A DNA stretch of 64,000 bases from Actinopolymorpha pittospori. GTDB lineage: Bacteria; Actinomycetota; Actinomycetes; Propionibacteriales; Actinopolymorphaceae. The stretch spans positions 4,092,001 through 4,156,000 of the forward strand of contig NZ_JADBEM010000001.1 of assembly GCF_014873875.1 (NCBI RefSeq). The letters run 5' to 3'. Below the pieces are notes generated by a model. That model did no database searches and was not told the origin of the DNA. It saw nothing but the letters and a program-made list of their open reading frames with translations. The position numbers and the translations under genes are program-made. Of this stretch, positions 8,050 through 55,147 are shown in pieces (positions within the stretch are counted from its first letter, which is position 1; each line of letters starts with the position of its first letter).

Positions 8050-8129
8050 GGGGTGGCGGGGCAGCGTCCGGTGCGGCGTCCGGCGTCCGGCGTGCGGCGT
8101 TCGGTGGCTGGTGGCTGGTGCGGCGACGG

Positions 8130-8891: not shown

Positions 8892-9031
8892 GTCGTCCTC
8901 CTTCGGGGGCAGACGAGGGTCGCCCAGGACATGCCTGGGCTGTCTCCTCGACAACACGCGCCGGGACGCGTGGGCGCAAGGGCTCGCGGTGGCCGAAACC
9001 AGTCGCGGGTGGCGCCCACGCCCCCGCTCGC

Positions 9032-9910
9032 TCAGGCCTTCAGGCCGGTGGAGGCGAGCCCTTCGATGAAGTAACGCTGGCAGAACGCGAAGACCAGCAG
9101 GACCGGCACGATCGTCATCGTCGCCGCCGCCATCAGTGCGCTCACCTGGGTGAAGAACTGTCCCTGGAACAACGCGAGGGCGACCGGGAGGGTCTGCAAC
9201 TCGGGTGAGTTGATGAAGATGAGCGGCCCGAGCAGGTCGTTCCAGGACTCCACGAAGGTGAAGATGCCCACCGCGGCCAGTGCCGGCTTGGCGAGTGGCA
9301 GCATGATCCGCCAGTAGATCGTGAGCGTGCCCGCGCCGTCGACCTTCGCGGCGTCCTCGAGTTCCTGCGGCAGCGACTTGAAGAACTGCCGCAGCAGGAA
9401 GGTGCCGAAGATCGGCGTGAACGCGCGCGGAACCCACAGCGGGTACTGCGTGTCCAGCCAGCCGACGTCACGGAACACGATGTACTGCGGGATGAGGTAG
9501 GCGACGTGCGGAATCAGCGAGCTGCCGAGCAGCAACAGGAACAACGTGTCCCGGCCCCGAAACCGCAGCCGCGCGAACGCGTAGCCGGCCAGCGGCGCGG
9601 TCACCAGCAGGCCCACCACGCTGAGCGCCGCGACCTTCACACTGTTGAGGAAGTACGGCAGGATCACCTCCCACGCCTGGGCGTAGTTGGCCATGGTGAC
9701 GGTGCTCGGCACGAACTTCGGCGGCACGGTGAAGACGTCCGCCTCGGGTTTGAGTGACGAGCTGACCATCCAGATGAGCGGTAACAGAAATCCCAGCGCC
9801 AGCAGGATCATCGCGAGGTAGTAGGCCACGGTCGCGGCCCGTCCGAGCACCGATCTTCCCGCGGCGGTGCTGAACGACCTCGCGAGCGCGGGCTCGCTCG
9901 TCGCCGACAT
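9032..9910 (-). CDS. Carbohydrate ABC importer permease, MalG type
   Basis: A 292-residue inner-membrane subunit with six hydrophobic segments. The EAA loop that docks the ATPase reads EDAAKVDGAGTLTIYWRIML. An N-terminal cytoplasmic tail precedes the first helix. It pairs with the MalF-type permease 70 bp upstream and the binding lipoprotein. No ATPase gene is present in the cluster, which is usual in actinobacteria where a shared MsiK-like ATPase serves many importers. Confidence 0.92.
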   Translation of the reverse strand: MSATSEPALARSFSTAAGRSVLGRAATVAYYLAMILLALGFLLPLIWMVSSSLKPEADVFTVPPKFVPSTVTMANYAQAWEVILPYFLNSVKVAALSVVGLLVTAPLAGYAFARLRFRGRDTLFLLLLGSSLIPHVAYLIPQYIVFRDVGWLDTQYPLWVPRAFTPIFGTFLLRQFFKSLPQELEDAAKVDGAGTLTIYWRIMLPLAKPALAAVGIFTFVESWNDLLGPLIFINSPELQTLPVALALFQGQFFTQVSALMAAATMTIVPVLLVFAFCQRYFIEGLASTGLKA

Positions 9911-9980
9911 CGTCGGTGTTCTCCTTCGACTCGTTGGATCAGGGCTCTCGTACGGCTTGTCCTACGGCCTGTCACAGCTC

Positions 9981-10928
9981 CTAGTCGTAGTGGACCCAGC
10001 GGCGCTGAAGCTTCCACTGGATCACGGTGGCCGCGGCGATGACGGCGAACATGATCCACGCCATCGCACTGGCGTAGCCGACCTTCCCGGCACCGAACGC
10101 GGTCTGGTAGAGGTTCAGCATGAAGACGTTGGTCGCGTTGTTCGGGCCGCCCTGCGTCATCACGAAGACGATGCCGAAGACCTGGAACGTCCCGATGAAC
10201 TGCGTGATGAGAACGAAGAACGTCGAGGGTGTGAGGAGTGGGAGGGTGACGTGCCACAGCCTGCGCCAGGCGCCTGCTCCGTCGACCTTGGCCGCGGCGT
10301 ACAACGTGTCCGGAATGCCCTGCAGGCCGGCGAGGAACACGACCATCGGATAGCCGACGCCCTGCCACACGCTCGCCACGATGAGGGCGACCATCGCCCA
10401 ACCCGACTGGGCGAGCCAGGAGGTGCCCTGGATGCCCACCATCGCGAGGAGGCCGTTGAGGACGCCGTTGTCGGGAGCGTAGAACCAGTACCACACGAAG
10501 CCGACGGCCACCGAGTTCGCGACGTACGGAACGAAGAACGCCAGCCGGAAGACGCCCATCGCCGGCAGTCTGCGGTTGCAGAGCAGAGCCAGCACGAGCG
10601 CGAGGAGGGTCGTGAGGGGGATCGCGCCGGCCATGAAGACGAAGGTGTTCCGGACGATCCGATGGAACAGTTCGTCGGAGAAGAGCAGCGTCGTGTAGTT
10701 GCGCAGTCCGACGAAGTGGCGGGGAGAGATTCCGTCCCAGTCCGTGAGTGACGTGACGGTCGTCATCAGGATCGGGTAGAGCTGGAAGACCGCGATCCCC
10801 GCCACGACGGGGGCGACGAAGAGGTAGCCGAACATCGCCTCCCGTCGTGCCGCGAAACCGCCGCCACGGCGAGCCGGTGGTTCCCTTCGGTGCCGGAGAC
10901 CGCTCCTGGTCGTCGTCTGTGTCGTCAT
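9981..10928 (-). CDS. Carbohydrate ABC importer permease, MalF type
   Basis: A 315-residue permease subunit with six hydrophobic segments and the EAA loop AAAKVDGAGAWRRLWHVTLP. The N-terminal tail is Arg-rich (RREPPARRGGGFAARREAMF), typical of the first permease in these operons. It starts 9 bp after the stop of the solute-binding protein gene, which marks a tight operon. Confidence 0.92.
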   Translation of the reverse strand: MTTQTTTRSGLRHRREPPARRGGGFAARREAMFGYLFVAPVVAGIAVFQLYPILMTTVTSLTDWDGISPRHFVGLRNYTTLLFSDELFHRIVRNTFVFMAGAIPLTTLLALVLALLCNRRLPAMGVFRLAFFVPYVANSVAVGFVWYWFYAPDNGVLNGLLAMVGIQGTSWLAQSGWAMVALIVASVWQGVGYPMVVFLAGLQGIPDTLYAAAKVDGAGAWRRLWHVTLPLLTPSTFFVLITQFIGTFQVFGIVFVMTQGGPNNATNVFMLNLYQTAFGAGKVGYASAMAWIMFAVIAAATVIQWKLQRRWVHYD

Positions 10929-10937
10929 GGCACCAGC

Positions 10938-12245
10938 TCAACTACTTCCACGCATGGCCTGCTCGACCTTGGCCCGCAGCGGAGGCAGAGCGTCCGCGGC
11001 CTTCGTCTTGCAGTTGTAAACGTCGTCGAGCACGGGGCGATAGATGTTCTTCGCGCCTTCGGCGCCCTTGATCTTGCCGGGCAACACCGACTTGTCGGCC
11101 GCGTCGACGAACAGGCCGACGTGCGCCGGCGGCTTGTCGCTGGGCTTGAGGAGTGCCGCTGCCTTGCGCGCACCCGGAACGAAGTAGTTGGTCCTCGCGA
11201 AGTTCTCCGCCCCCTCGCCCTCGGAGAGGAACCGGAGCAGCTCCCACGCCCCGTCCGGATTCGCCGCCCGCTTGGGGATGCACCAGGTCAGCTGGCTGCC
11301 GTAGGTCATCTGCTGCTTCATCGCCGGGATGGGTGCGATGTCCCAGTCGAAGTTCTTGACGTTCTGACTGGCGTACGACGTGAACGTCGAGGTCGCCTCG
11401 ACCATGGCGAGCTGGCCGGCGACGAACATCTGGTTGGAACGCTGGTCCTGCTTGAGGGATGCCCAGTCGGGCTGTACGTGGGCGGCGCAGGTCAGGTCGG
11501 CCACGCGCTGGACAGCGTCGAGCCCTTCCGGGCCAGCGAGAGTAAAGCGCTTTCCATCCGCCGAGAACGGACCGTCACCGCCGTTGTTGACGGGGTGGAC
11601 CACTTCGTAACCCGTGTCCTGGACGATCGCCGCGCCCCACTGGCCCTGCTTGGTGAGGCGGCGGGCGCGGTCGAGGAAGTCGTCCCAGGTCCAGCCGTCG
11701 GCGGTCCAGGTGGTCGGCGGCAGCTCCACTCCCGCCTTCTCGAACATCGTGCGGTTGTAGAAGATGACGCGAGGTTGGATGCCCACGCTCCACGCGGGCA
11801 CGGTGCCGTCGGCCTGCCGGCCCATGTCGTAGACCGCTGGGAAGTAGTCACTGCGATCCAGCTTGTCCCGCTTGAGATACGTCGCCAGATCGGTCAGCTG
11901 GCCGGTGGCACCGTAGTTGGGAATGTTGTCGTCGTCCACACGCATCAGGTCGGGCGGATCGCCGGATCCCAACAGTGCGCGGGTCTTCGCCCAGTAGTTC
12001 GTCATCGTGGGCGTGTACTGGATCTTGATCTCGATCCCGGTCTTGGCGGTGAACTTCTCGAACGCGTCGTTCCAGGGCGTTCCAGTGGGTGGATCCCAGT
12101 TCATGACCGTGAGGGTCTTGGCCGAGGCCCGGTCTCCGCCGCCACCGCCACAGGCCGCGACAACCGGGGCCGCGGCGAGGGATCCGGTGAGAAGGGCGAT
12201 GCTCTTGAGGACACTTCGACGACTCGTCGGTGCGGGCAGTGTCAT
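10938..12245 (-). CDS. Extracellular solute-binding lipoprotein (carbohydrate ABC importer)
   Basis: A 435-residue family 1 extracellular solute-binding protein. The N-terminus has a twin-arginine-like SRRSVLK followed by a hydrophobic stretch and the lipobox VVAACGGG, so it is probably exported folded and lipid-anchored. The body shows typical features: GSGDPPDLMRVDDDN, PAWSVGIQPRVIFYNRTMFE and GAWELLRFLSEGEGAENFA. The ATG at 12245 is preferred to an upstream in-frame start because AAGGGA lies just before it and it places the signal peptide at the N-terminus. First gene of the importer operon; the sugar ligand is unknown. Confidence 0.92.
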   Translation of the reverse strand: MTLPAPTSRRSVLKSIALLTGSLAAAPVVAACGGGGGDRASAKTLTVMNWDPPTGTPWNDAFEKFTAKTGIEIKIQYTPTMTNYWAKTRALLGSGDPPDLMRVDDDNIPNYGATGQLTDLATYLKRDKLDRSDYFPAVYDMGRQADGTVPAWSVGIQPRVIFYNRTMFEKAGVELPPTTWTADGWTWDDFLDRARRLTKQGQWGAAIVQDTGYEVVHPVNNGGDGPFSADGKRFTLAGPEGLDAVQRVADLTCAAHVQPDWASLKQDQRSNQMFVAGQLAMVEATSTFTSYASQNVKNFDWDIAPIPAMKQQMTYGSQLTWCIPKRAANPDGAWELLRFLSEGEGAENFARTNYFVPGARKAAALLKPSDKPPAHVGLFVDAADKSVLPGKIKGAEGAKNIYRPVLDDVYNCKTKAADALPPLRAKVEQAMRGSS

Positions 12246-12772
12246 GGCGAAAACATCCCTTGGATTGGCGTCTCTTACGAACTGGACGTGGTCGGCGACC
12301 GGCATGAACCACCCCCGCGAGGAGATGGCTTGCGGCGCACGTCATGCCCTAAGCCGCTTCGGCGGGGCTTCGGCAAGGACGCGTTGCGGATGCGGCCAAC
12401 TCTGGCCGCCCTTTCGCATAGGTGAATCCCATCCACCCATGCGAATCGTTTGGAGCTTAACCAGACCCGTCGGAGGGCAGCAAGTTTCGGATGCGAGGGT
12501 GGCCGAACCCGGGCACGCCGTGCGAGCGAGGCAGGAGCTGGTCCAGGAGTCAGGCGGGAGCGGGTGTCCTCGATCGGCCGCGGGGCAGACGGACCGACAC
12601 GACCTGCGGCCCAGGTGGCCGATGTCGGTCGGGTTCGCGGTCTCGGGCAGGAGAAACCCGCATCGCGCAAGCGCTGCTCCCCCATCGGTCGTCCACGCCT
12701 CGACCACCTTCGGATTGGCAACGTCGCGCGCGTCTCGACGAGCGATGAGCCGCCGTCGGCGCTGCGACCACC
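12246..12772. other. Divergent intergenic region (527 bp)
   Basis: This lies between the importer operon (minus strand) and the first GAF protein gene (plus strand) and must hold both promoters. It contains two copies of the short word GCTTCGGC near 12356-12371 and a slightly AT-richer patch near 12436-12462. No open frame has a good ribosome-binding site or resembles a protein, and no clear operator was found. Confidence 0.4.
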
Positions 12773-14446
12773 ATGAAGCGCTGCGACTACGATGAAGCGG
12801 TGCCCGGCGCCGGAGAATCCGGCGGGAGCCGCTCCACGGTCGCCCCACTCACCGATGGGCTCGCTCCCGACCTGGCCCTGACCCTGCGTTCGATCGTCGA
12901 GTCGGCGGCCGAGCAGGTGTCTGCCCAGTTCGCCATCCTGATCGCGAGCATTCCCGGCGAACACGTCTCGACGTTCGTCACCTTCGGCTTTCCGGAGGAG
13001 CCTGACAGAACACGCGAACTCCGCGCGCTCGACAGCATCGACGATCTCCCTGAGTTGACCGGCCTGTCGTGCATCGAGGACATCGACCGGTATCGCGCCG
13101 CCCACGCTCTTCCACCGCGTTCGTCGGTACTCACCAACCTGATCGGTGCGCCGATCTATCTGGACGAACAGCCCCTTGGCTGTCTCTATCTTGCGAACAA
13201 ACGCGGACCGCGTGCCTTCACGGGTGAGGACGAGGAGCCGGTGCTCGCGATGGCGACCGCCGCGGCCGCCGCGATCGAGAACGCCCGGCTGTTCCGCGTC
13301 GAGCAGCGCCGCCAGCAGTGGTTGGAGGCGGCGCTGGAGATGACGCGGGTCCTGCTCAGCGACGTGGGACGCATCCAGGCCGCGCGGGTCGCGGTCCGGC
13401 TGCTACGAGGGGTCGCCGCCGCCGACTACGCCGCCTTCGTGCTCCTCGACGACGCCTACCAGGGGGGCGCGATCGCGTTCGAGGCGGTGGACGGTCTCGA
13501 CATGGGTCACCTCGCCGGAACGCCCGGACGGCTCCAGGGCATAACCGCCCGGGTCGCGGCGACCGGCGAGGGTGTGGTCAGTCCCCGGATCACCGAGGAG
13601 CCGGACTTCGACCCGCCGGCGCCGGTGGCCAAGGCGCTGTCGGTGCTGGGGCCGGGCATGTATCTCCCGCTCGCCGCGGCGGGGAGGGTGTTCGGTGTCC
13701 TCATCATCGGATGGCGGCGTGGCGCGTCCGACGACCACGTCGCTCCCACCGAGGTTCGGATGGTGGAGATGATCGCCGGCCAGGTGGCCCTGGCCCTGCA
13801 GGAGGTTCAGGCGCGAAGCCTGGTGATGGAGGACCGGGACCGGATCGCCCATGACCTCCGCGAGGTCACGGTCGGTCGGCTCTTCGCCGTCGACGCCCAT
13901 CTTCTCGGCACCGTCGCGATGATCTCCGAGCGTGACGCCCGGGATCGGGTCAACGACGCGATCGACGAACTGCGCGACACCAACCAGCAACTGCGTTCGG
14001 CGATCTCCACCCTGGACCAGGCAGAGACGTCGGAGCCGCGTCCGGCCAGCGATCTGATGATCGACGAGATCGACGCGGCCCGCACCACCTTCGGTTTCAC
14101 TCCACGCCTGATCATCCACGGATCGCTGGACCGCGACCTTCCGCCCTACCTGGGACGTGAGCTCGCGGGAGGTCTCCGCGAGGCGCTGGTCAACGCTGCG
14201 AGCCACGAGGCGCCGAGCAGCGTCGAGGTCGACGTGACGGTGACCGCCAGCCAGGTCAGCGTCCTGGTGAGCGACGACGGTCGGCAGCGGGAACAGCAGC
14301 CAACCCCCGGGGCGCTGGGCCAGCTCCGGGCGAGATCGGAACGACTCGGCGGGTCCTGTGGCGTACGGCAGGGCGCGACTCCCGGCACCACGGTCGTGGA
14401 GTGGAAGGTACCGCTGACCATCCCGCGGGCGTCCGGCCCCCGGTAG
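12773..14446 (+). CDS. GAF-GAF sensor with degenerate histidine-kinase core (DevS-like paralogue 1)
   Basis: A 557-residue cytoplasmic protein. GAF-A spans about residues 35-175 (IGAPIYLDEQPLGCLYLANK) and GAF-B about 195-345 (GPGMYLPLAAAGRVFGVLII). The kinase dimerisation region follows: DRIAHDLREVTVGRLFAVDA. In DevS/NarL-type kinases the phospho-accepting His is in a DLHD box; here that box reads DLRE. The ATPase domain keeps the N-box asparagine (REALVNAASHE) and a DDG, but the glycine-rich lid is poor (TPGALGQLRARSERLGG). By alignment from memory the haem-binding His of DevS GAF-A is also replaced. No response regulator is nearby. It may be a signalling protein working without autophosphorylation. 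Confidence 0.82.
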   Translation: MKRCDYDEAVPGAGESGGSRSTVAPLTDGLAPDLALTLRSIVESAAEQVSAQFAILIASIPGEHVSTFVTFGFPEEPDRTRELRALDSIDDLPELTGLSCIEDIDRYRAAHALPPRSSVLTNLIGAPIYLDEQPLGCLYLANKRGPRAFTGEDEEPVLAMATAAAAAIENARLFRVEQRRQQWLEAALEMTRVLLSDVGRIQAARVAVRLLRGVAAADYAAFVLLDDAYQGGAIAFEAVDGLDMGHLAGTPGRLQGITARVAATGEGVVSPRITEEPDFDPPAPVAKALSVLGPGMYLPLAAAGRVFGVLIIGWRRGASDDHVAPTEVRMVEMIAGQVALALQEVQARSLVMEDRDRIAHDLREVTVGRLFAVDAHLLGTVAMISERDARDRVNDAIDELRDTNQQLRSAISTLDQAETSEPRPASDLMIDEIDAARTTFGFTPRLIIHGSLDRDLPPYLGRELAGGLREALVNAASHEAPSSVEVDVTVTASQVSVLVSDDGRQREQQPTPGALGQLRARSERLGGSCGVRQGATPGTTVVEWKVPLTIPRASGPR

Positions 14447-14485
14447 TGGTGGGGGAGCTGCTCCGGAGCTGGAGCGCGTCAGGGG

Positions 14486-14842
14486 TCAGGGCGGGTCCGG
14501 ATGTGCGTCCAGGCCCGAGACCTCGGCGTAACCCACCCGCGGCGGACTGGCGGATTGGGCGAGGCGGGCTACGAAGGTGGGCTCGTCCACGACCTCGACG
14601 CCAACGGGATGGAAAGGACGTCCGGCGTCAAGAACCGCGCCGCGGACGATTCGCAGGGCGTCAACCGCGGCTTGCCTGAGGGTGCTCGCCTCGAGGGAGA
14701 GTGACGCCGAGACCCTTCCGATCTCATGCTCTCGACCTACGGAGGTGTTGTAGGAGGACAGTGCCGCGGCGATGGAGAGCAGATCGATGTCCGACATGGC
14801 GCTTCCGTCGCGCCACTCGACCCGAGCTACCCAACTGGTCAT
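14486..14842 (-). CDS. Small protein of unknown function between the two GAF genes
   Basis: A 118-residue soluble protein on the strand opposite to the two sensor genes. The ATG at 14842 (MTSWVARVEWRDGSAMSDID) has a strong GGAGGAGGGGAAG ribosome-binding site about 7 nt upstream, supporting a real gene. It is acidic in its first half and ends in a short Pro/Asp tail. It has an SVSLEA-like strand pattern, with a segment VGREHEIGRVSASLSLEAST. No family could be named. Its position suggests a functional link to the sensors, but this is inference. Confidence 0.65.
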   Translation of the reverse strand: MTSWVARVEWRDGSAMSDIDLLSIAAALSSYNTSVGREHEIGRVSASLSLEASTLRQAAVDALRIVRGAVLDAGRPFHPVGVEVVDEPTFVARLAQSASPPRVGYAEVSGLDAHPDPP

Positions 14843-44804: not shown

Positions 44805-45635
44805 TCAGGCCGCCGCCCGCCACGCCTGGGCGAGGCAGTCGGCGAGCTCGTCCGCCAGCTCGGGTGTCGCCGCGACGACGCCACTCCAGCGGCGGGTGAG
44901 GTCGGTGTCGAGCTCGATCGGCCGGCCGTGGACGTCTCTGACGGCGCCGCCCGCCGCGCGCACCAGGACGACGGCGGAGGCGAGATCGACCAGCCGGTGG
45001 GTGTCGGTGCAGGCGTCGGCGAAGGCGTCCGTCGCGCCCGTGGCCACCAGTGCCGCCTCCAGGCAGGAGGAGGACAGGATGCGAACCCGCGCGGCGCGTT
45101 CGACCGCACGCCACCAGGCGGCGGAGGCCTGGGGGTTCGCCGGATGGGGGCGCAGCAGGGACAGCGCGGCGCCGTCCAGGCTGGTGCGGCCGCTGGTGCG
45201 CAGGCCGGAGGAGGTGTCGCCGGCCGCCGACCAGCGCCAGCCCGTCTCCGTCCAGACGGTCAGGGCCTGGGTGAACTCCCCGTCGGTCGCGAGCGCGGCG
45301 CTGAAGGCCGACAGCGGTACGCCGGCCGCCGCGTTCGCCGAGCCGTCGAGCGGGTCCATGACCAGGGTGTACGCCGAGCCCCGGTCGATCCAGCCGCTCT
45401 CCTCGGTCAGGATGTTGACGCCGGTGCCCTCGACGGCGGACAGGATCGCGTCCTCGACGATTCGGTCCACCCGCATCGTCGGTGTCGCGTCGGCGCCCAT
45501 CGCCACGGGTTCGGCCAGGTCGCCGGGACCCAGCCGGAGCCGGGCGTCGTTGACCGCGGTGACGCTCGCCTCGGCGGCGATGGCGAGGGCCGGGTGCAGG
45601 CCGGGGACGTCGCGCCAACCGGTGCCGGGCATCAT
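44805..45635 (-). CDS. Inositol monophosphatase-family protein coupled to the C-P lyase operon
   Basis: A 276-residue metal-dependent phosphatase of the IMPase/FBPase superfamily. Metal-binding motifs are present: ILTEESGWIDRG and VMDPLDGSANAAAG (DPxDGxxN type). The C-terminal acidic motif region reads DTHRLVDLASAVVLVRAAGG. ATG at 45635 overlaps the phnM stop (ATGA), so it belongs to the C-P lyase operon as its last gene. The operon lacks phnN and phnP, which process the ribosyl phosphate product in E. coli; this enzyme may act on a late intermediate (inference). Confidence 0.85.
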   Translation of the reverse strand: MMPGTGWRDVPGLHPALAIAAEASVTAVNDARLRLGPGDLAEPVAMGADATPTMRVDRIVEDAILSAVEGTGVNILTEESGWIDRGSAYTLVMDPLDGSANAAAGVPLSAFSAALATDGEFTQALTVWTETGWRWSAAGDTSSGLRTSGRTSLDGAALSLLRPHPANPQASAAWWRAVERAARVRILSSSCLEAALVATGATDAFADACTDTHRLVDLASAVVLVRAAGGAVRDVHGRPIELDTDLTRRWSGVVAATPELADELADCLAQAWRAAA

Positions 45636-46795
45636 GCCGCCACCAGTTCTCGGGTGTCGTTCGCGGTCCAGGTACCACGCACGGTGGGCCAGCCGGCGTC
45701 GACCGTCGCGAGTGCGAGGTCGGCGCGCAGGCCGACCTCGAGTCGACCCCGGTCGGTGAACCCGGCGACCCGCGCCGCTCCGTCGGTGACGAGGCGGACG
45801 GCGGCCGGGAGGTCGGCGAGTCCCTCGCTCGCCAGCCGGAACGCCGCACCCACCATGGTGAACGGCATGTAGTCGCTGGAAAGGCCGTCGACCAGGCCGT
45901 GGGCGACGAGCTCGGCCGCGGAGACGTTGCCGCTGTGTGAGCCGCCGCGCAGCACGTTGGGCGCGCCGGCGACGATGAGCAGGCCGTGCTCCCGGGCCGC
46001 GAGCGCCGCCTCCAGCGTGGTCGGGAACTCCGCCACCCCGAGGCCGCAGGCCGCGAGCTCGTCGACCTCCGCACGGGTGACCAGGTCGTGGGCGAGCATC
46101 CGGACGGCGTCGCGGCGTTCGAGCAGCCACGCCAGGGCCACGGCGCGGTGACCGATCTGCTCGTCCCGGCGGGCGATCAGCTCCTGCACCTCGGCGCGGG
46201 CGGCCTCGTGGTCCTCCCGCCCGCTCAGGTAGAGCCGGATGTAGGCGTCGAGGTCGCGGAACTGACCCTGGCCGGGCGTGTGGTCCTCGTAACTCACCAG
46301 CGGCGGGATGTCGGCGCCGGCGTACAGCTCGAGGGTCTGACCGAGCGCGGTGAGCCCGTCGGGGTCGCGGGCGTCCAGGCGGAACAGCATCCGGTGGTCG
46401 ATCTGGGCCTGCCCGGAGCTCATCCGCTCGCGGATCGCACGTTCGCGGGCGCGAGCCCCGTCGATGCTTCGGCCCTTGCGGTTGTCGGAGTAGAAGCCGG
46501 TGGCGTGGAAGACGGTCGTGATGCCGGAGGCACGCACCCGGCCCTCGAAGCTGGCCAGGCCGAACCCGACCTCGAACAGCACGCTCGGTCGCGGCTGCAG
46601 CTCCTTCTCCAGGCCGTCGCTGTGGGTGTCGACCAGACCGGGCAGCAGGAACGCGCCCCGCCCGTCGACCGCGTCGGCGGGTCCGGGTCCGGTGGAGATC
46701 TCGGCGAGGACACCGTCCTCGGCGACCACCACCGCGTCGTCGAGGATGCGGTCGGGGAGGACCGCGCGGACGTGACGAATCGTGAGTCGGCTCAT
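45632..46795 (-). CDS. phnM: Alpha-D-ribose 1-methylphosphonate 5-triphosphate diphosphatase PhnM
   Basis: A 387-residue amidohydrolase-fold enzyme that releases pyrophosphate from the ribosyl phosphonate triphosphate before C-P bond cleavage. Family motifs: LLPGLVDTHSDGLEKELQPR with the metal-binding DTHSD, FHATGFYSDNRKGRSI, YEDHTPGQGQFRD, and APNVLRGGSHSGNVSA. ATG at 46795 overlaps the phnL stop by 4 bp. Confidence 0.95.
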   Translation of the reverse strand: MSRLTIRHVRAVLPDRILDDAVVVAEDGVLAEISTGPGPADAVDGRGAFLLPGLVDTHSDGLEKELQPRPSVLFEVGFGLASFEGRVRASGITTVFHATGFYSDNRKGRSIDGARARERAIRERMSSGQAQIDHRMLFRLDARDPDGLTALGQTLELYAGADIPPLVSYEDHTPGQGQFRDLDAYIRLYLSGREDHEAARAEVQELIARRDEQIGHRAVALAWLLERRDAVRMLAHDLVTRAEVDELAACGLGVAEFPTTLEAALAAREHGLLIVAGAPNVLRGGSHSGNVSAAELVAHGLVDGLSSDYMPFTMVGAAFRLASEGLADLPAAVRLVTDGAARVAGFTDRGRLEVGLRADLALATVDAGWPTVRGTWTANDTRELVAA

Positions 46796-47631
46796 CGAGC
46801 CACCTCCAGGTCGTACGACGGATCGTGCAGGATCTGGCTCGGCGCGCCAATCGCGACGACGCGGCCACCACCAAGGACGACCACCCGGTCGGCCAGCCGC
46901 TCGATGGCGTCCAGGTCGTGGAAGACCGAGAGCACCGCGACGCCGCTGCCGGCGAGGCGTTCGATGAGGGCGAGGACCGCTTCGCGGTTGACCGGGTCGA
47001 GGGCCGACACCGGCTCGTCCAGGAGCAGCAACCTCGGCGGAGAGATCAACCCGGACGCGAGATTGACCCGTTGCTTCTGCCCGCCGGACAGCAGCGTCGG
47101 GTACATCGCCCACAGCTTGGGTTCGATGTTCAGGCGGGCGAGCGCGTCCTCCGCGGCCTCCCGCGCGGCGGGCACCGACAGGCCGCGGGCGACGCCGGCG
47201 CGTGCCACGACATCGACGGTCGCCCGGCGCGGCTCGGCGCGCAGGAACTGCGACACGTAACCGATCTCGCGACCGCGCAGCGCGGCGACCGAGGCGTCGG
47301 GCAGCCCGGCGAGGTCGACCTCGCGACCATCGCCCCGACGGAACACGATCGCGCCGCCGCCGGGCAGGTACGTCCGGTAGACACAGCGCAGCAAGGTGGA
47401 CTTGCCGGCGCCACTCGCGCCGGCCAGCACGACGTGTTCGCCCGCGTGGACATCCAGGTCGACACCCGAGAGAGCCTCGACCCGCCGCCCGTCGATGGTG
47501 TGGAGGACGAACTCCTTGGTCAGGCCACGGATGGACAGGACGACATCGGGGCCGTGCGGGCCGACCGGGTCGGTCGAAGCGTCCGGGCCGGGTGAGCTGT
47601 CCGGGCCGGGTGAGCTGTCCGGACTGGGCAT
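46792..47631 (-). CDS. phnL: C-P lyase complex ATP-binding-cassette protein PhnL
   Basis: A 279-residue ABC-type protein, part of the C-P lyase machinery rather than a transporter. Walker A GASGAGKST, the PhnL-typical YVSQFLRAEPRR, signature LSGGQKQR, Walker B LLLLDEPVSALDP and switch His FHDLDAIE are intact. ATG at 47631 is chosen because a strong AAGGAGGT lies 7 nt upstream, overlapping the phnK stop; an ATG at 47649 would overlap phnK. The N-terminus is a Ser/Pro/Asp repeat (SSPGPD twice) encoded by tandem 18-mers. Confidence 0.93.
   Translation of the reverse strand: MPSPDSSPGPDSSPGPDASTDPVGPHGPDVVLSIRGLTKEFVLHTIDGRRVEALSGVDLDVHAGEHVVLAGASGAGKSTLLRCVYRTYLPGGGAIVFRRGDGREVDLAGLPDASVAALRGREIGYVSQFLRAEPRRATVDVVARAGVARGLSVPAAREAAEDALARLNIEPKLWAMYPTLLSGGQKQRVNLASGLISPPRLLLLDEPVSALDPVNREAVLALIERLAGSGVAVLSVFHDLDAIERLADRVVVLGGGRVVAIGAPSQILHDPSYDLEVAR
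47581..47616. repeat. Tandem 18-bp repeats in the phnL 5' end
   Basis: Bases 47581-47598 and 47599-47616 are identical 18-mers (GTCCGGGCCGGGTGAGCT), followed by a partial degenerate copy. They encode the SSPGPD repeats in the dispensable-looking N-terminal tail of PhnL. Confidence 0.8.
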
Positions 47632-47645
47632 GGCGGTTACCTCCT

Positions 47646-48533
47646 TCATCCGCGGGCCGCCGCGACGAGGCGCTGGCTGTAGGGGTGCTGCGGGTCCTCG
47701 AACACCTGGTCGGTGAGCCCGGTCTCGACGATGCGGCCGTGCTGCATCACCGCGACGCGGTTGGTGAGCATCTCGATGACGGAGAAGTCGTGGGAGATCA
47801 CCAACGCGGCGAGACCGTACTCCTCCAGCAGGCTGCGGACGAGATCGAGGACGCCGGCCGCGACCGAGGCGTCGAGCCCGGTGGTGGGCTCGTCGAGCAG
47901 GACGACGGGCGGCCGGTTGGCGAGCGCCTTCGCGAGCTGGACCCGTTGCCGCATGCCGCCGGAGAACGTCCGGACCAGGTGGTCCATCCGGACCAGCGGC
48001 ACCTCCGTGCGGGTCAGGAGTTCGCCGGCCCGTTCCCGGATCCGGCCGAAGTGCCGCCAGCCGGCGGCGGTCAGCCGTTCGGCCACGTTCCCGCCCGCGG
48101 TCACACCGAGGTCGAGCCCGGCCGCGGGGTCCTGGTAGACGACCGACACCTGGTCGACGCGCAGCTTGCGGCGGGCCGCGGGGGAGAGGGACAGGATGTT
48201 GGTGAGGCCGCCGTCGACGGTGCGCAGGTACGCCGCACCGGCGCTCGCCTGCTCGTCGCCGGAGATGCACCGGACGACGGTGGACTTTCCGGAGCCGGAC
48301 TCGCCCACGATGCCGAGCGCCTCGCCGGGCGCCACCTCGAAGGAGACGTCCCAGGCGGCGACCACCGCGCCGGTGAGCGGGCTGATCACCGTGTCGTGCT
48401 CCGGCCCGGTCCCGGGCACGGCCTCGGCGCCGCCGGACCCGAAGATCCGGCCCAGGCCCTCGACCTTCAGGGCCCACGCGGGCGCGGCTTCCTCGCTGCC
48501 GACGGGGCGGGTCTCTTCCGCGACGAGGGTCAC
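47646..48533 (-). CDS. phnK: C-P lyase complex ATP-binding-cassette protein PhnK
   Basis: A 295-residue ABC-type protein that docks on the PhnGHIJ core. Walker A GESGSGKST, signature FSGGMRQR, Walker B VVLLDEPTTGLD, switch His ISHDFSVIE, and C-terminal EDPQHPYSQRL. An insertion of about 25 residues (GSGGAEAVPGTGPEHDTV) near the N-terminus separates the first two strands. GTG at 48533 overlaps the phnJ stop (GTGA). Confidence 0.93.
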   Translation of the reverse strand: MTLVAEETRPVGSEEAAPAWALKVEGLGRIFGSGGAEAVPGTGPEHDTVISPLTGAVVAAWDVSFEVAPGEALGIVGESGSGKSTVVRCISGDEQASAGAAYLRTVDGGLTNILSLSPAARRKLRVDQVSVVYQDPAAGLDLGVTAGGNVAERLTAAGWRHFGRIRERAGELLTRTEVPLVRMDHLVRTFSGGMRQRVQLAKALANRPPVVLLDEPTTGLDASVAAGVLDLVRSLLEEYGLAALVISHDFSVIEMLTNRVAVMQHGRIVETGLTDQVFEDPQHPYSQRLVAAARG

Positions 48534-49450
48534 GATGCCTCCCTGTTCTCGGTGGTCCCGTCGGTGGTCCCGTTGGTGGTCCGCGCCGCCCGAGCGGCGC
48601 GGATCCGGCGGTCGCACCAGTCGGTGTCGCTGCACAGCCAGGTCTCGGTCCCGTTGGTCGCGGGAACGGAGACGAGGAAGGCCTCCTCCGCGCCGCAGCG
48701 TCGGCAGCTGGCCCCGGGGGTTCGCTCGACCTCGAACGGCACGTCCTCGAAGGTCAGCGGCTCGACGTCGGTGTGCGGCGGAACGGCGTAGATCCGCTTC
48801 TCCCGGCCGGCGCCGAACAACGTGAGGTGCTCGGCCTGGTTCAGCTTCGGTACGTCCCAGCGGGGGATCGGCGTGGTGGCGAGGACGTACCGCCCGTCGA
48901 CCAGGCACGGATAACCCGTCGTCTTGGTGACGACGCCGTTGCGCACGATGTCCTCGTACAGCGCGACCCACATCCGGGAGTACTCCGCCTCCGCGTGCAT
49001 CCGCTGCTGTTCGCGCATGTCGCGTTCGACGCCGCGCAGGGGTTCGGGCACCGGCACCTGCAGCACCAGCGTCTGGTCGGCCCGCAGCGGATCCTCGGGA
49101 ACGCGGTGCCGGCTCTGGATGATGGTCGCCACCCGCGAGTCGGACTCCTCCTCACAGCCGGTGTGCCCGACGATGAGGCGGCGCAGGTTCACCGCGTTCA
49201 CGCCCGCGTCGTCGCCCTGGTCGATGACCTTCACCGCGTCGTCCGGGCCGACGATGGCGAGGGTGATCTGCAGGCCGCCCGACCCCCAGCCGCGGGACAC
49301 GGGCATCTCCCGGGAGCCGAACGGCACCTGGTAACCGGGTACGGCGACCGCGGTCAGGATCGCCCGGCGGATCTCCCGCTTGCTCACCTCGTCCAGCAGT
49401 CCGAACGTCGCTTCCTGCCCGACACTGTCGAGCACCGTGCTGAGCGTCAT
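48530..49450 (-). CDS. phnJ: Alpha-D-ribose 1-methylphosphonate 5-phosphate C-P lyase PhnJ
   Basis: A 306-residue radical SAM enzyme that cleaves the carbon-phosphorus bond. The glycyl-radical region is REMPVSRGWGSGGLQ. The 4Fe-4S/thiyl cysteines are conserved in order: CRRC, then LCSDTDWC about 21 residues later, matching the Cys241/244/266/272 pattern of E. coli PhnJ. A C-terminal Thr/Asn-rich tail (NGTTDGTTENREAS) is extra. ATG overlaps the phnI stop. Confidence 0.96.
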   Translation of the reverse strand: MTLSTVLDSVGQEATFGLLDEVSKREIRRAILTAVAVPGYQVPFGSREMPVSRGWGSGGLQITLAIVGPDDAVKVIDQGDDAGVNAVNLRRLIVGHTGCEEESDSRVATIIQSRHRVPEDPLRADQTLVLQVPVPEPLRGVERDMREQQRMHAEAEYSRMWVALYEDIVRNGVVTKTTGYPCLVDGRYVLATTPIPRWDVPKLNQAEHLTLFGAGREKRIYAVPPHTDVEPLTFEDVPFEVERTPGASCRRCGAEEAFLVSVPATNGTETWLCSDTDWCDRRIRAARAARTTNGTTDGTTENREAS

Positions 49451-50718
49451 GGTGTCCCTCCTGTCGACGCGGACACCGGGTCGTCGGCGCCCGGGCCGGC
49501 GCTCACCGAGGAGATGCAGTCCTCCTCCGGCGGCGCTTCGGCGAGCAGGCCGTCAACGTCGGCTTGCGCTGCCTCCCGGCGGTCCATCTCGGCCAGCGCG
49601 GCCGCGACCGCTCGCTTGCGCTCCACCATCGAGCGGAAGGTCACGTAGTGCGGCAGCTTCAGGTGTTCGAGGAAGCCGGAGGAGTCGAGTCCGTCGGTGG
49701 TGAGCAGGATCGACTGGTGCAACGCGGAGCGGCCGCGGTCGCGCCAGGCGGAGATGTCGAGGTTGGCCATCGCGATCGCCTTGCGTTCGTTGTGGCCGAA
49801 GCACAGGCCGTACCCGACGTCAAACTTCGTGCGGTCCTCGTCCAGGCCGTCGAGGTCCTCGATCGCCTCGGTCTCGGTGGCCCGGACCGTCCCGATGTCG
49901 ACCGACCCGCCGGTGTGCGGGTGGGCGATACGGACCGGCAGGTAGCCGTGCCGGACCTCCCCGAGGGTGACCTCGTGGATGTAGCCGTCCGGCCCGAGGA
50001 CGTTGCGGTACCACAGGTTCATCAGGGCACCGGTCTCCGCGCGGGACATCGCCGCGAGCCACGCCGAGCGTGGCGCGCCCGGTCGCGCGGGTTTGCGGGT
50101 GATGTCGAAGGGTTCCGGATCCTCGCCGGTACGCCGTTCGACGGCAAGGTCCAGCGAGCGCAGCAGCTCCAGCAACCTCGGCGGCCGGCGGTGGTCCACC
50201 TGTTCGTCCGCGGCGGAGTCCGGTGCGGCGGTGTCAACCGAGGCTTGCGATCCGGTGTCAGCGGAGTCCTCGGCACGACGAGCCTGGTCGCGGTGGGCTT
50301 CGGCCCGCGCGTCGGCCTCGGGGGTGAGGTCGATCAGGCGTCCGGTGTAGTCCAGGGTCCGGCCGAGGAGCTGCGGCCCCGGCGGTGTGCGGTAGGCCGG
50401 GACGATGCGGCGCAACAGCACCATCTCGTCCGCGTCCACGGGCACGGTGTAGGCGAGCCGGGGCAGGGTCGAACGGTAGGCGCGCAGCAGTTGCGCGGCC
50501 TCGAGCACGTCGCCCTCGGCCTGGCGGAAGGCGCGGGCGGCGAGCTCCGGCGCCCAGAGCCCGCCCTCGCCCTGCACCCGGTCGACCGCCAGCCGGAGCC
50601 GTTCGGTGATCTGGTCCAGGCCGAGCCAGTCACTCTCACCCGTCAGCCGGCGGCGGCGGACCAGCGCCTCCGCGGCCCGGATCGCGTCGAGCCCGCCACG
50701 GGCTCCCGAGTAGCCCAT
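49447..50718 (-). CDS. phnI: C-P lyase core component PhnI
   Basis: A 423-residue nucleosidase-type core subunit that, with PhnG, H and L, joins the phosphonate to ribose triphosphate. Motifs: MGYSGARGGLDAIRAAEALV, VGYGLCFGHNERKAIAMANL and HYVTFRSMVERKRA. A variable Ala/Asp/Ser-rich insertion lies at about residues 150-175. The ATG joins the phnH stop as TGATG. Confidence 0.95.
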   Translation of the reverse strand: MGYSGARGGLDAIRAAEALVRRRRLTGESDWLGLDQITERLRLAVDRVQGEGGLWAPELAARAFRQAEGDVLEAAQLLRAYRSTLPRLAYTVPVDADEMVLLRRIVPAYRTPPGPQLLGRTLDYTGRLIDLTPEADARAEAHRDQARRAEDSADTGSQASVDTAAPDSAADEQVDHRRPPRLLELLRSLDLAVERRTGEDPEPFDITRKPARPGAPRSAWLAAMSRAETGALMNLWYRNVLGPDGYIHEVTLGEVRHGYLPVRIAHPHTGGSVDIGTVRATETEAIEDLDGLDEDRTKFDVGYGLCFGHNERKAIAMANLDISAWRDRGRSALHQSILLTTDGLDSSGFLEHLKLPHYVTFRSMVERKRAVAAALAEMDRREAAQADVDGLLAEAPPEEDCISSVSAGPGADDPVSASTGGTP

Positions 50719-51386
50719 CAGAGCACCTTCCTCTCCTGCGCCGTCTCGTGTGCCATCTCCTGTGCCGTGTCATGGGCGCTCTCGGTCGGCTCGGCGATCC
50801 GGATCCGCACACTTCGCGGCACCGAGACCAGCACGCCGTCCGCCGCGACCAGGTGGACGTCGACCCCGGCCGGGAAGTCGCTGTTGACCCGCGCCAGCGC
50901 GGTCACCACCGTGTTGTCGAGCCCGGTCACGGCCACGGTGCGTTCACCCGGTACGCCCGGACCGGACAGCGCGAGCCGCAGCGGTCCCGTCTCGGCGTCC
51001 AGCCGCTCGACGGCGATCACCAGCCGGGCGCCGTCTTCGGGCGCGTACGCCGTACCTCGACGCAGCGTGGTGACCTCCTTCGCCGTCACCGGGCGAAGGG
51101 CGACCACCATGTCGGCCTCGGCCGCCGTCGCGGGAGGCGCACCGGTGACGGCGTACACCGGGTCGGCCCAGCCCGCGCCGTCCTCCAGGACGGCGACCCG
51201 GACCTCGACGTCGGCGAGCGCGACGGCGGGCAGCGACGCGGGTGGCACGCCGGGTGGAAACTCCAGCTGGGCCAGTGTTCCTGGCCGCGCGAGGCTGTCC
51301 AGGAGCTGGTCGAAGACGCGCTGGGCGGCCGATGGGTTCAGCCGTATGGCGCGCGCCCGTTCGCCGAGTGTCTGCGTGCCGGTCAC
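50718..51386 (-). CDS. phnH: C-P lyase core component PhnH
   Basis: A 222-residue core subunit of the PhnGHIJ complex. Family pattern: AQRVFDQLLDSLARPGTL, VTAKEVTTLRRGTAYAPEDG and SGPGVPGERTVAVTGL. The C-terminus has a short repeat (HDTAQEMAHETAQE). GTG at 51386 overlaps the phnG stop (GTGA). Confidence 0.93.
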   Translation of the reverse strand: MTGTQTLGERARAIRLNPSAAQRVFDQLLDSLARPGTLAQLEFPPGVPPASLPAVALADVEVRVAVLEDGAGWADPVYAVTGAPPATAAEADMVVALRPVTAKEVTTLRRGTAYAPEDGARLVIAVERLDAETGPLRLALSGPGVPGERTVAVTGLDNTVVTALARVNSDFPAGVDVHLVAADGVLVSVPRSVRIRIAEPTESAHDTAQEMAHETAQERKVL

Positions 51387-51838
51387 GAGTCCAGCTCCTC
51401 GAAACGCACCTCGGTCGGCGCGATCTCGGCCCACTCCGCGCGCGCCGCCCGCGCCTCCCGCTCGGCGACCCGGCGGCACAACGCCTCGACGGAGGCACGG
51501 TCCGCGCCGTCCGGTGCCTCCGCGGCGGCGTCCAGGATCGCGGCCGCAAGGGCCGCTTGACGGTCGTCGCCCAGTCGCATGCACCAGCCGCGGTGGCCAC
51601 CGAGCTCGACCTCGGTCCGAGTCACCAGAACCTCACCGAGATAGAAACGCTCGGCGGCGACGGGCTCGCGTACCTGCATCATCACCATGCCGACCTCCGG
51701 GCCGGACAGCACCACCGGGTCGCCCTTTCTGGCAAGGGTTTCCTCGGCCAGCGGCTCGAGTTCCTCCGGCAGCGCCCGGGCGAGCAGCGACGCCCGCTCC
51801 TCGCGGCTCAATGTGTCTTCGGTGGCTGTTCCCGTCAC
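51383..51838 (-). CDS. phnG: C-P lyase core component PhnG
   Basis: A 151-residue core subunit. Family motifs: SREERASLLARALPEELEPL, VGMVMMQVREPVAAERFYLG and EVELGGHRGWCMRLGDD. GTG at 51838 overlaps the phnF stop (GTGA), placing the whole phnFGHIJKLM-IMPase run in one translationally coupled operon. Confidence 0.94.
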   Translation of the reverse strand: MTGTATEDTLSREERASLLARALPEELEPLAEETLARKGDPVVLSGPEVGMVMMQVREPVAAERFYLGEVLVTRTEVELGGHRGWCMRLGDDRQAALAAAILDAAAEAPDGADRASVEALCRRVAEREARAARAEWAEIAPTEVRFEELDS

Positions 51839-52554
51839 CCTTCCTCCTCGATCTGGAAGACCATGCGGATCACGTGTGGGTTGGACCAGGTGTAGGAGTA
51901 CTCACCGAGTTGGGTGGTGCCCTTGACCCGGTTCAGGCTCTCGGCGTACCAGCAGGGGCGGGGCGCCTCGTCCCCCAGCAGGTCCGCGACGTCCCGGTCG
52001 GGCACGTCGAGCAGGACCTGGTGGCGGTACCTCTGCAGCTGGACGCCGTAGACCTGGGACACCAGCGTGTGCAGGGAGAAGTCGTCGCCGAGGTGCTCCT
52101 CCAGACCGGGCAGCCGGTCGCCCGGCAGCACGCTGGTGAGGACACCGGCGACCTCGCCGTCGACGAGGTTCAGTCGGCGTACCTCGACGATCGACCCACC
52201 GTCGGCGATCTCGGGCTCGTAGGAGTGGACGGGCTCGGGATCGCGGCGCCGCACCGAGAGCAACCGGGTACCGGGCCTGGCACCCGCCGCGGCAACCGTC
52301 GCGGTGAAGCTCGGCACGATGTGCTTGCTGATGGTGTAGTCGATGCGGCGGCGGACGAACGTGCCCGAGCCGCGCACCCGCTGGACGAGATACCGGTGCT
52401 CCAACTCCTGCAGCGCCGCCCGTGCGGTGAGCCGGCTGACGCCGTGGCTCGCGACCAGCTCGTACTCCGAGGCCACGCGGGTGCCGGGAGGCGTGTCCCG
52501 GAGCTGGTCGGCGAGCCGGTCCGCGAGCTCGAGATAGGTCGACCGAGTTGTCAT
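51835..52554 (-). CDS. phnF: GntR/HutC-family regulator PhnF
   Basis: A 239-residue regulator. Winged helix at about residues 5-72 (LELADRLADQLRDTPPGTRV; VSRLTARAALQELEHRYLVQ; RVRGSGTFVRRRIDYTI) followed by a UTRA-type effector domain (about 90-239, with GSIVEVRRLNLVDGE). PhnF proteins repress phosphonate genes. ATG at 52554; a perfect 12-bp palindrome covers the start codon, which suggests autoregulation. Confidence 0.92.
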   Translation of the reverse strand: MTTRSTYLELADRLADQLRDTPPGTRVASEYELVASHGVSRLTARAALQELEHRYLVQRVRGSGTFVRRRIDYTISKHIVPSFTATVAAAGARPGTRLLSVRRRDPEPVHSYEPEIADGGSIVEVRRLNLVDGEVAGVLTSVLPGDRLPGLEEHLGDDFSLHTLVSQVYGVQLQRYRHQVLLDVPDRDVADLLGDEAPRPCWYAESLNRVKGTTQLGEYSYTWSNPHVIRMVFQIEEEG

Positions 52555-52559
52555 GACAA
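52548..52559. promoter_or_regulatory. Palindromic candidate PhnF operator at the phnF start codon
   Basis: TTGTCATGACAA is a perfect 12-bp palindrome containing the GTnnnnAC core used by HutC-type GntR repressors, and it contains the phnF ATG. Binding here would block transcription or translation initiation of phnFGHIJKLM. Confidence 0.6.
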
Positions 52560-52664
52560 GTACGCTGCCGCCCCCAGGTTGCCCGCACCGGTGATCGTCG
52601 TGTCGGAACGGTGAACGACCGGCGAGCGGCTGGTGGTCGACCATGGCGGCGGGCGTGTCGTCGC

Positions 52665-52718
52665 TCAGCTGAGCGCGTGCTGGAGCCGGCTTGGTACCGC
52701 TGGAGCCGCGCCCGCCAT
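52665..52718 (-). pseudogene. Possible 5' relic of phnE
   Basis: An 17-residue frame, MAGAAPAVPSRLQHALS, starts at a TGATG junction with the phnC stop, exactly where phnE would be expected to begin, and ends at once. The remaining 110 bp to phnF hold no membrane-protein coding. It may be the remnant of a deleted permease gene; the protein is too short to prove homology. Confidence 0.3.
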
Positions 52719-53599
52719 CAGCTCGCCCGGATCCGGATGCGGTTCCTGCTCCGGTCGGGTTCGCGGGTGTCACTGTCCGCGTCCCGGTACACCGCCTCGA
52801 CCTGTGCGCGCTGCAGGCCGGCGGTCGACCGGTCCAGCACGACGCGACCGGCCCGCAGGCCGATGATCCGGTCCGACCAGCCGATGGCGAGCTCCACCTG
52901 GTGCAGGCTGCACACCACCGTGAGCCGGTCCTCCGCGCAGACCCGCACCAGGACGTCGAGCACCTGGGCGGCCGACTCCGGGTCCAGCGAGGCCACCGGC
53001 TCGTCGGCGAGCACCAACTCCGGGCCCTGCATCAGCGTCCGCGCGATCGCGACCCGCTGCTGCTGCCCACCGGAGAGCGTGTCGGCCCGCTGGAAGGCGC
53101 GGTCGGCCAGGCCCACCCGGTCGAGTTGCTCCAGCGCCGATCGCCGCAGGGTCCTGGACCAACTGAGCACGCCGTATCTCGGGCCCGTGACCCGACCGAG
53201 GGCGCCGGTGAGGACGTTCGCCATGGCCGTCAGCCGTCCGACCAGATGGAACTGCTGGAAGACCATGCCGACGCGGCGGCGCAACCGGCGCAGGCTCGCG
53301 CCACGCGCCTGGGTGACGTCGACGCCGAGGACCTCGACGCGCCCGGAGGTCGCCGGGCTCAGGCCGTTCAGCGTTCGGAGCAAGGTGGACTTGCCGCCGC
53401 CGGATCGACCCACCAGCGCGATGAGCTCGCCGGGACCGATGCGCAGGCTGATCCGGTCGCACGCGACGACCGAGTCGAAGGTCTTCACCAGGTCCTCGAC
53501 GACCACGACGTCCTGGTTGCCGCTCTCCCCACGCGTGGGCGGCACGGAGCGAGGGCCCGGCTGCGCGGGCTGGCCCGGCACCAACTCGGCGGAGTTCAC
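52718..53599 (-). CDS. phnC: Phosphonate ABC importer ATPase PhnC
   Basis: A 293-residue ATPase with Walker A GRSGGGKST, PhnC-typical VGMVFQQFHLVGRLTAMANV, signature LSGGQQQR, Walker B LVLADEPVASLDP and switch His CSLHQVELAI. GTG at 53599 overlaps the phnD stop (GTGA). It looks functional, but its permease PhnE is absent and its binding protein PhnD is damaged, so it may be an orphan. Confidence 0.92.
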   Translation of the reverse strand: MNSAELVPGQPAQPGPRSVPPTRGESGNQDVVVVEDLVKTFDSVVACDRISLRIGPGELIALVGRSGGGKSTLLRTLNGLSPATSGRVEVLGVDVTQARGASLRRLRRRVGMVFQQFHLVGRLTAMANVLTGALGRVTGPRYGVLSWSRTLRRSALEQLDRVGLADRAFQRADTLSGGQQQRVAIARTLMQGPELVLADEPVASLDPESAAQVLDVLVRVCAEDRLTVVCSLHQVELAIGWSDRIIGLRAGRVVLDRSTAGLQRAQVEAVYRDADSDTREPDRSRNRIRIRAS

Positions 53600-54213
53600 G
53601 AGGTCGCCTCGCACTGCTCGTCCTGGGTGGTCGCGCAGACCTTCCGGACGGGATCGAAGGTCTTGTCCTGCGCCGCCACGTAGCCCCCCATGCCGGCCTT
53701 CCCGGCGACGACGCACGACTTCGCGTCCGCACACTTGCCATTCTCGACCAGCCAGTCCTTGTTCAACTTGGTGAGGAACGTCTCGGAGATCTTCTTCCGC
53801 ACGTCCTCGGGAAGCGCGTTCCGCATCGCCACAGGTGAGCTCGGGATGGCCGGGCTGCGCCACACCACCTTGATCTCGCCGGCCCTGAGGTTTCCGGTGG
53901 AGGGCATCGTCGTGTCGACCATCGTGTCGGAGGCGAAGCCCACGTCACACTTACCGGACCTGACCGACTGCACCGAAAGGTCGTGCGCACCGGCCATCAC
54001 CGGTGTCAGCTTGGCACCGACCGTGCGCGCAAGGACATAGGAGAACGGGCCGAGCATGCCGACGTCCACCGTCCCGGACTTCAGGCCTTCGATGACGCCG
54101 TTGTAGTTCGTCGTCTGCTTGAACTCGACCTGCCGTCCGGTCTCCTCCTCGAGCATCTCGATCACCGTTTTCCACGACTGGCGGGGATCGGTCTGCTGTC
54201 GGCCAGATTTCAT
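53596..54213 (-). pseudogene. phnD: Phosphonate-binding protein PhnD, truncated and internally deleted
   Basis: The remaining frame encodes 205 residues, versus roughly 300-350 for intact PhnD. The protein begins inside the first domain (QSWKTVIEMLEEETGRQVEF), and a stop codon two codons before the ATG cuts off any signal peptide or lipobox. FSYVLARTVGAKLTPV then runs directly into MAGAHDLSVQSVRSGKCDVG; in the family these are separated by about 60 residues (the VCFVDPASTSG-type region). The C-terminal domain is preserved (FASDTMVD; SSPVAMRNALPEDVR; paired cysteines CADAKSC). Without secretion signal and hinge region it cannot work as a periplasmic receptor. Confidence 0.85.
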
Positions 54214-54274
54214 CAGCTACTCCGGTATGGGTGCTGTCGGGGGGTGTCTGGGCGGCACCGACGCTAGGACCGAG

Positions 54275-54286
54275 TTGATAAGACAA
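54275..54286. promoter_or_regulatory. Second candidate PhnF site upstream of phnD
   Basis: On the minus strand TTGTCTTATCAA matches the phnF-start palindrome TTGTCATGACAA at 9 of 12 positions, keeping the outer TTGTC and CAA. It lies about 60 bp before the phnD remnant and 200 bp before the divergent transferase gene. Confidence 0.4.
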
Positions 54287-54473
54287 GGCGATGCCAGCAT
54301 GATGAGTGCTGCACGCTTGGATGAACGCGGGGCGACCTGGCGCAGGGATCCCGGCCCTGACCCGCCGCGGAAGTCCTGTGCAGCAAGGAACCTGAGCCTC
54401 CCGGCCGGGTCGAATTCACGTGCGCGTGGGTGAGTGGTAACCGGCTCTTTCTGGCATTCCGGCACTCGCGCAC

Positions 54474-54490
54474 TAGCGTGGGGCCCCATG
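54474..54490 (+). promoter_or_regulatory. Leaderless-type promoter of the hexapeptide transferase
   Basis: A -10-like TAGCGT (54474-54479) is followed after 8 nt by the ATG at 54488, and there is no ribosome-binding site. This is the arrangement of leaderless actinobacterial genes, where the transcript starts at the A of ATG. Confidence 0.55.
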
Positions 54491-55147
54491 CCAGAGGCGA
54501 TGAGGCTCGGTCCGGAGCCGCTGGTCCATCCGACCGCACACGTTCGAAACTGCCAACTCGGCGAGTACGTCGAGATCGGTCCACACGCTTCGCTGGCCGA
54601 AACCGTGATGGGTGACTATTCCTATGTCATGCAGGGCGGCGTCATGTGGCACGCGGAGATCGGGAAGTTCGCCTCGATCGCGGCGTACACACGGATCAAC
54701 GCCCCGAACCATCCGACCTGGCGAGCATCCCAACATCACTTCACCTACCGTTCGATCGACTACGGCCTCGCCGACACCAACGACGCGGAGTTCTTCGATT
54801 GGCGGCGAGCGCATTCCGTCCGTCTCGGACACGACGTCTGGATCGGCCACGGCGCGGTCGTGCTGCCCGGCGTCACGGTCGGCACGGGTGCGGTCGTGGG
54901 CGCCGGGGCGGTGGTGACCCGCGACGTGCCGGCCTACACCACGGTGGCCGGCTCGCCGGCGCGGGTGATCCGGAAACGGTTCGACGCCCCGATCGCCGAC
55001 CGGCTGCTGGCCCTGGCCTGGTGGGACTGGCCGCGCGATCGGCTCCGCGAGGCGCTCACCGCCTTCCGGGAACTCGACGCCGCGGAGTTCTGCGAACGGT
55101 TCGAGGGCGCCGGGAGTCCGCTGTCGCACGCGAGCACCTCGCCCTGA
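54488..55147 (+). CDS. Phosphonate-metabolism hexapeptide-repeat transferase
   Basis: A 219-residue left-handed beta-helix acyltransferase. Hexapeptide repeats run from about residue 10 to 60 ([19 protein letters not shown]) and again at 118-160 ([20 protein letters not shown], then [18 protein letters not shown]); between them is a catalytic-type loop with [20 protein letters not shown]. This matches the phn-associated transferase family (TIGR03308-like) found beside C-P lyase genes. It is divergent from the phn operon. Its acceptor is not known. Confidence 0.88.

Follow-up and report, generated by a model that had tools for sequence, protein, structure and literature searches.

In Escherichia coli, phosphonates are processed by PhnG-H-I-L and PhnM, and the C-P bond is cleaved by PhnJ. 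Two C-P lyase operons are reportedly present in Pseudomonas stutzeri, as White and Metcalf are said to have described in 2004. That the importer beside C-P lyase genes may be broken, or may lie elsewhere, is already in print: passages of one paper describe the phn operon of E. coli K-12 as cryptic, with an 8-bp insertion in phnE (PMC6469041), and passages of another place phnDCE and phnFGHIJKLMN of Arthrobacter glacialis in separate clusters (PMC7866108). Here we describe a C-P lyase operon that stands beside the remains of an importer.

The operon lies in a 64-kb window (the whole stretch of DNA that was analysed; positions 4,092,001-4,156,000 of the contig), to which all feature positions refer. 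The source genome is a single contig of 10,562,590 bases, with a completeness of 99.05 and a contamination estimate of 8.3. On the minus strand the genes run phnD'-phnC-(163-nt gap)-phnF-G-H-I-J-K-L-M and end with a gene of the inositol-monophosphatase (IMPase) family; a phn-linked hexapeptide transferase gene (TIGR03308; 293.9 bits, cut-off 201.65) is divergent, on the plus strand at 54434..55147, its start not fixed. A reading made from the sequence alone had the genes joined by 4-bp overlaps. This holds for most joints (phnD'/phnC, phnF/phnG, phnG/phnH, phnI/phnJ, phnJ/phnK, phnL/phnM and phnM/IMPase, and phnK/phnL too if phnL starts at the ATG at 47649); however, phnH and phnI overlap by 1 bp only, and 163 nt (52555..52717) separate the stop of phnC from the start of phnF. 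The IMPase-family gene (44805..45635, minus strand), unnamed in the earlier reading, overlaps phnM by 4 bp and ends at position 44805.

The core was described as intact, and all eight of its genes, on the minus strand throughout, indeed give full-length family matches. phnF (51835..52554), a GntR-type regulator gene, is recognised by its position, by a palindrome and by a TIGR02325 match of 68.4 bits, which is under the cut-off of 156.8. It is followed by phnG (51383..51838), phnH (50718..51386, the start taken from the overlap), phnI (49447..50718), phnJ (48530..49450), phnK (47646..48533, here not fused to phnJ), phnL (46792..47649, alternative start at 47631) and phnM (45632..46795). PhnG, PhnH, PhnI and PhnJ are over their Pfam cut-offs and PhnM is over those of two NCBIfam models; PhnK, PhnL and the TIGR02318 match of PhnM fall below equivalog cut-offs. 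The proteins whose joint presence defines a C-P lyase operon by gene content, PhnG, H, I, M, J, K and L, are all encoded. The cysteines of the C-P lyase subunit PhnJ are conserved, as had been noted: in an alignment with E. coli PhnJ (4xb6), C249, C252, C273 and C279, and also G39, stand opposite C241, C244, C266, C272 and G32, the E. coli residues given in passages of PMC9947105.

Divergence from three outgroup loci was compared with that of the intact operon of a member of the same family of organisms (G007, locus L024), for proteins other than PhnL and, in the case of PhnK and PhnM, without values for locus L056. Against the outgroups PhnJ reaches 70-71% in the window and 67-68% in G007; for PhnI the values are 68-69% and 58-62%, while PhnG, PhnH, PhnK and PhnM are as similar to the outgroups as the G007 copies or closer. 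PhnF is slightly more diverged (36-40% in the window, 39-42% in G007). Since the majority of core proteins have diverged no further than their counterparts in G007, no clear decay is visible, and to judge from this conservation the core phnF-M may still be expressed and active. PhnP gave no match over the cut-off in the genome (best 26.5 bits against 272.25). An IMPase-profile match occurs somewhere in 46 of the 59 loci that have at least 5 kb after phnJ, and the IMPase-family gene of the window is, by its position, a possible stand-in for a late step of the pathway.

The importer is in a different state. phnC (52718..53599, minus strand), which encodes the importer ATPase, is whole and is the only intact importer gene at the locus, as the sequence-only reading had it: the TIGR02315 match reaches 281.2 bits (cut-off 266.1), and Walker A, signature and Walker B motifs are present. 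The truncated binding-protein gene phnD' (53596..54213, minus strand) encodes 205 aa. No signal peptide is seen by eye in its open frame, and an in-frame TAG stands two codons before the ATG. Residue 5 aligns to residue 47 of the G007 PhnD, and thus some 42 residues at the signal-peptide end are gone. The internal gap was likewise correctly read. The PF12974 match is in two pieces (profile positions 11-66 and 137-239), and two landmarks that are 84 residues apart in G007, as in the Spongiactinospora loci L032, L033 and L056, are 17 apart in phnD', as counted by hand on the translation. The 67 missing codons include the STSG motif, which aligns with STS in PtxB and PhnD proteins of known structure and which we take to bind the phosphonate group. 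The gap amounts to 201 bp, is in frame, and corresponds to a G007 segment with CCGGT at both breakpoints, a pattern suggestive of deletion by short homology. The remaining part of PhnD' has diverged no further from the outgroups than intact PhnD has (43-45% compared with 41-46%); this fits a recent loss, but also a retained function. By these features the window PhnD' is not a secreted or lipid-anchored protein with a complete binding fold.

The absence of phnE was also borne out: no phnE profile match of at least 60 bits occurs in the 64 kb, and none of the 19 genome-wide matches to TIGR01097 (PhnE) falls inside the window. In relatives, two phnE domains occupy the place of the 163-nt gap. 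Among 80 named PhnJ loci, 21 have phnD, phnC and phnF in the order and strand of the window, and phnE lies between phnC and phnF in every one, as two profile matches in 20 and as three pieces in L084. The stretch that holds it measures 1702-3314 nt between profile edges, compared with 163 nt in the window. The window is therefore most likely derived from a D-C-E-E-F type from which phnE was lost. The idea that some phnE sequence survives between phnC and phnF was considered and rejected, the matches (best E 1.8e-5, composition correction off) being weak, arginine-rich and to out-of-frame extensions of phnE frames.

A palindrome, TTGTCATGACAA (52548..52559, minus strand), spans the start codon of phnF and is a candidate PhnF operator; it also crosses the phnF ATG in L024 and in the Spongiactinospora loci L032, L033 and L056. 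The form TTGTCNNGACAA is found between -150 and +30 of phnF in 27 of 53 loci (L024 plus the named loci with a phnF match and at least 150 bases ahead of it) and elsewhere at 2 sites in 1,392,388 bases. In the 10.56-Mb genome its only exact occurrence is at the window phnF (backwards control, 0); the genome scan found none at the other importers, and so no sign of shared regulation. Because TTGTCATGACAA is conserved at the phnF start, and was spared by the phnE deletion, the core probably keeps its own regulated start, one that is probably under the control of PhnF, which may bind the candidate palindrome. Upstream of phnD' is an imperfect operator-like copy, TTGTCTTATCAACTCGGTC (54268..54286, minus strand), a weak and circular match. 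A repeat-mediated origin of this second site was set aside, as the search pattern had been built from both copies.

C-P lyase is sparsely distributed among relatives. PhnJ occurs in 15 of 396 genomes drawn from the phylum and 11 of 394 drawn from the class, the genome under study (G000) being in both sets and the only PhnJ-bearing one with two copies; it occurs in 2 of 117 relatives, G000 counted, and in none of the five genus-mates listed. In the 48 of the 80 named loci with at least 9 kb on each side of phnJ, phnE is present in 38 and absent from 10 (17 phnE-less loci with short flanks stand outside this count), so absence of a local phnE is not rare. Of the ten genomes without a local phnE, eight, all Saccharopolyspora, have PhnE over the cut-off elsewhere. 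Nocardia alni (L088) and Streptantibioticus ferralitis (L098) each have a C-P lyase operon and no PhnE over the cut-off in the genome, and are the more promising cases of a C-P lyase that truly lacks an importer.

The closest relatives differ from gene to gene. PhnD', PhnC, PhnF, PhnH and PhnM have their best or near-best matches in G007 or Spongiactinospora, whose importers are complete (directly upstream of phnF in Spongiactinospora; nearby on the other strand in G007), while PhnG, PhnI, PhnJ, PhnK and PhnL match other actinobacterial loci best. The operon thus looks mosaic in ancestry, and a single D-C-E-E-F ancestor for the whole of it is unproved.

Of the 106 PhnJ frames examined, in 106 loci of which some are short, 44 also contain PhnK: at L022:10252-12360, in the genome under study, and in 43 of the 80 named loci. 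This frequency rules out the fusion as a peculiarity of the operon at L022. Our literature search found no paper on the shared frame, which would fit a direct PhnJ-PhnK contact.

The sequence-only reading had the locus keep its chemistry and lose its importer. This stands for the window but not for the cell. A genome-wide search returned what that reading had named as evidence against it, a complete phnDCE elsewhere, in four sets. Full-length PhnD occurs at four further places (177-192 bits; two weaker partial matches, of 51.3 bits at L006 and 35.4 bits at L008, are outside this count), and PhnE is over the cut-off at the same four loci, side by side with PhnD and with phnC at each. L020 has phnDCE, a GntR regulator and a TIGR03364 oxidoreductase; L021 has phnDCE and a phosphonate HD-domain oxygenase-like gene, below the cut-off of that model. 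L022 (operon B) is the second C-P lyase operon of the genome and is complete, importer included: an RpiR-type regulator, phnD (whose start looks signal-like by eye), phnC and a fused phnE-E, then phnG, phnH, phnI, the PhnJ-PhnK fusion, phnL and phnM. The genome's two PhnJ copies are those of the window and of operon B. L023 (cluster C; 7377-14644) is the mirror image of the window operon in its losses. It has kept its importer (phnD, phnC, fused phnE-E), continues with phnG and a phnH cut near its end, and passes directly, at about 12.1 kb of L023, to the C-terminal part of phnK (roughly 148 residues, 84% identical to B), then phnL and phnM, with an RpiR-type gene on the opposite strand; phnJ is missing, and phnI gave no match in the cluster. 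In the fused phnE-E of B and C only the first domain is over the cut-off. The proteins of B and C are 41-84% alike, and the two are therefore not recent copies of each other.

On these data we think it likely that the importer of a D-C-E-E-F-G-H-I-J-K-L-M operon was deleted, that it was redundant, and that the intact core is fed by paralogous PhnDCE systems. The ancestor would have been an actinobacterial C-P lyase operon of this type. Recent deletions would have taken out the two phnE domains, the start of phnD and, further inside that gene, 67 codons, leaving phnF-M with its own PhnF-controlled start. The other four PhnDCE systems, or at least one of them, would take up phosphonate, PhnG-H-I-L and PhnM would process it, and PhnJ would cleave it. 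The second complete operon and the three further phnDCE sets would make the window importer redundant; with four other importers and operon B, its loss was probably local and harmless, and may have been neutral. The core is probably fed in trans. Entry by another route, one of three options raised earlier, is accordingly the favoured one, the four paralogous importers having been found and the feeding step being what we infer. According to passages of PMC7866108, the cargo of a PhnDCE system can instead be phosphate (M. smegmatis), so phosphonate is unproved as the substrate of the other importers.

It is also conceivable, if unlikely, that the genome holds a split system, in which cleavage from the window (PhnF type) is coupled to differently regulated uptake (RpiR type) across three clusters with complementary losses. 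Their contents are complementary: the window has chemistry without importer, cluster C importer without phnI and phnJ, and operon B both. The open-licence literature that we searched yielded no description of such a three-cluster pattern, which is no claim of its absence.

Unlikely too is that the operon as a whole is being lost, the importer having gone first and the core being unused since operon B suffices. Operon B is complete, cluster C shows that half of such a cluster can be lost in the same genome, and the lack of PhnJ in the genus-mates listed implies that such operons come and go. Yet the core frames are full length and mostly as conserved as in the intact relative (PhnF a little less so), and the palindrome survives, although recent non-use would not yet leave marks. 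Decay from the transport end, as raised earlier, fits the importer genes, but the core is without clear decay and keeps its operator-like site. That the gaps are assembly errors is very improbable: there is one assembly only, with the contamination estimate noted above, but it is a single contig of high completeness, the phnD gap is in frame and matches short homology at its ends in G007, and at the phnE gap the palindrome and the genes on either side are undisturbed. Least probable of all is that the core acts on phosphonates of the cell's own making, an earlier suggestion that the missing importer beside the core would fit but that goes unsupported, given the four importers in the genome, the lack of any PEP mutase over the cut-off (best 129.9 against 319.55 bits, in a search that none of 14 control genomes passed and that is thus without a positive control), and the absence, from the two best matches (L106 and L107), of what we take to be the PEP-mutase motif.

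With an importer-less C-P lyase operon and several importers in one genome, phosphonate use is not safely read from a single locus. In this genome nature has set up a test of whether one C-P lyase can be served by the PhnDCE importer of another, and TTGTCNNGACAA is put forward as a possible PhnF operator in C-P lyase operons of actinobacteria.

Among known systems, eight Saccharopolyspora loci (L062, L064, L067, L068, L070, L075, L079 and L080) resemble the window in having no phnE in the fetched flanks. There, however, phnD matches nearly the whole profile and stands directly before phnF, and the flanks gave no phnC match, whereas in the window phnC is whole and phnD broken. Pseudomonas stutzeri is said to have two C-P lyase operons per genome, as here, where there is in addition a third cluster with a deleted core and an operon without importer. 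Arthrobacter glacialis, as portrayed in the passages cited, shares with the window a core without an adjoining importer and an importer elsewhere; its layout is one of separation only, whereas the truncated phnD and lone phnC of the window indicate that an adjacent importer was once present. E. coli K-12 is like the window in that the importer is broken in an operon that also holds the C-P lyase genes, but its defect is a reversible frameshift in phnE, whereas in the window phnE is gone, phnD is truncated, and a second operon and other importers are at hand.
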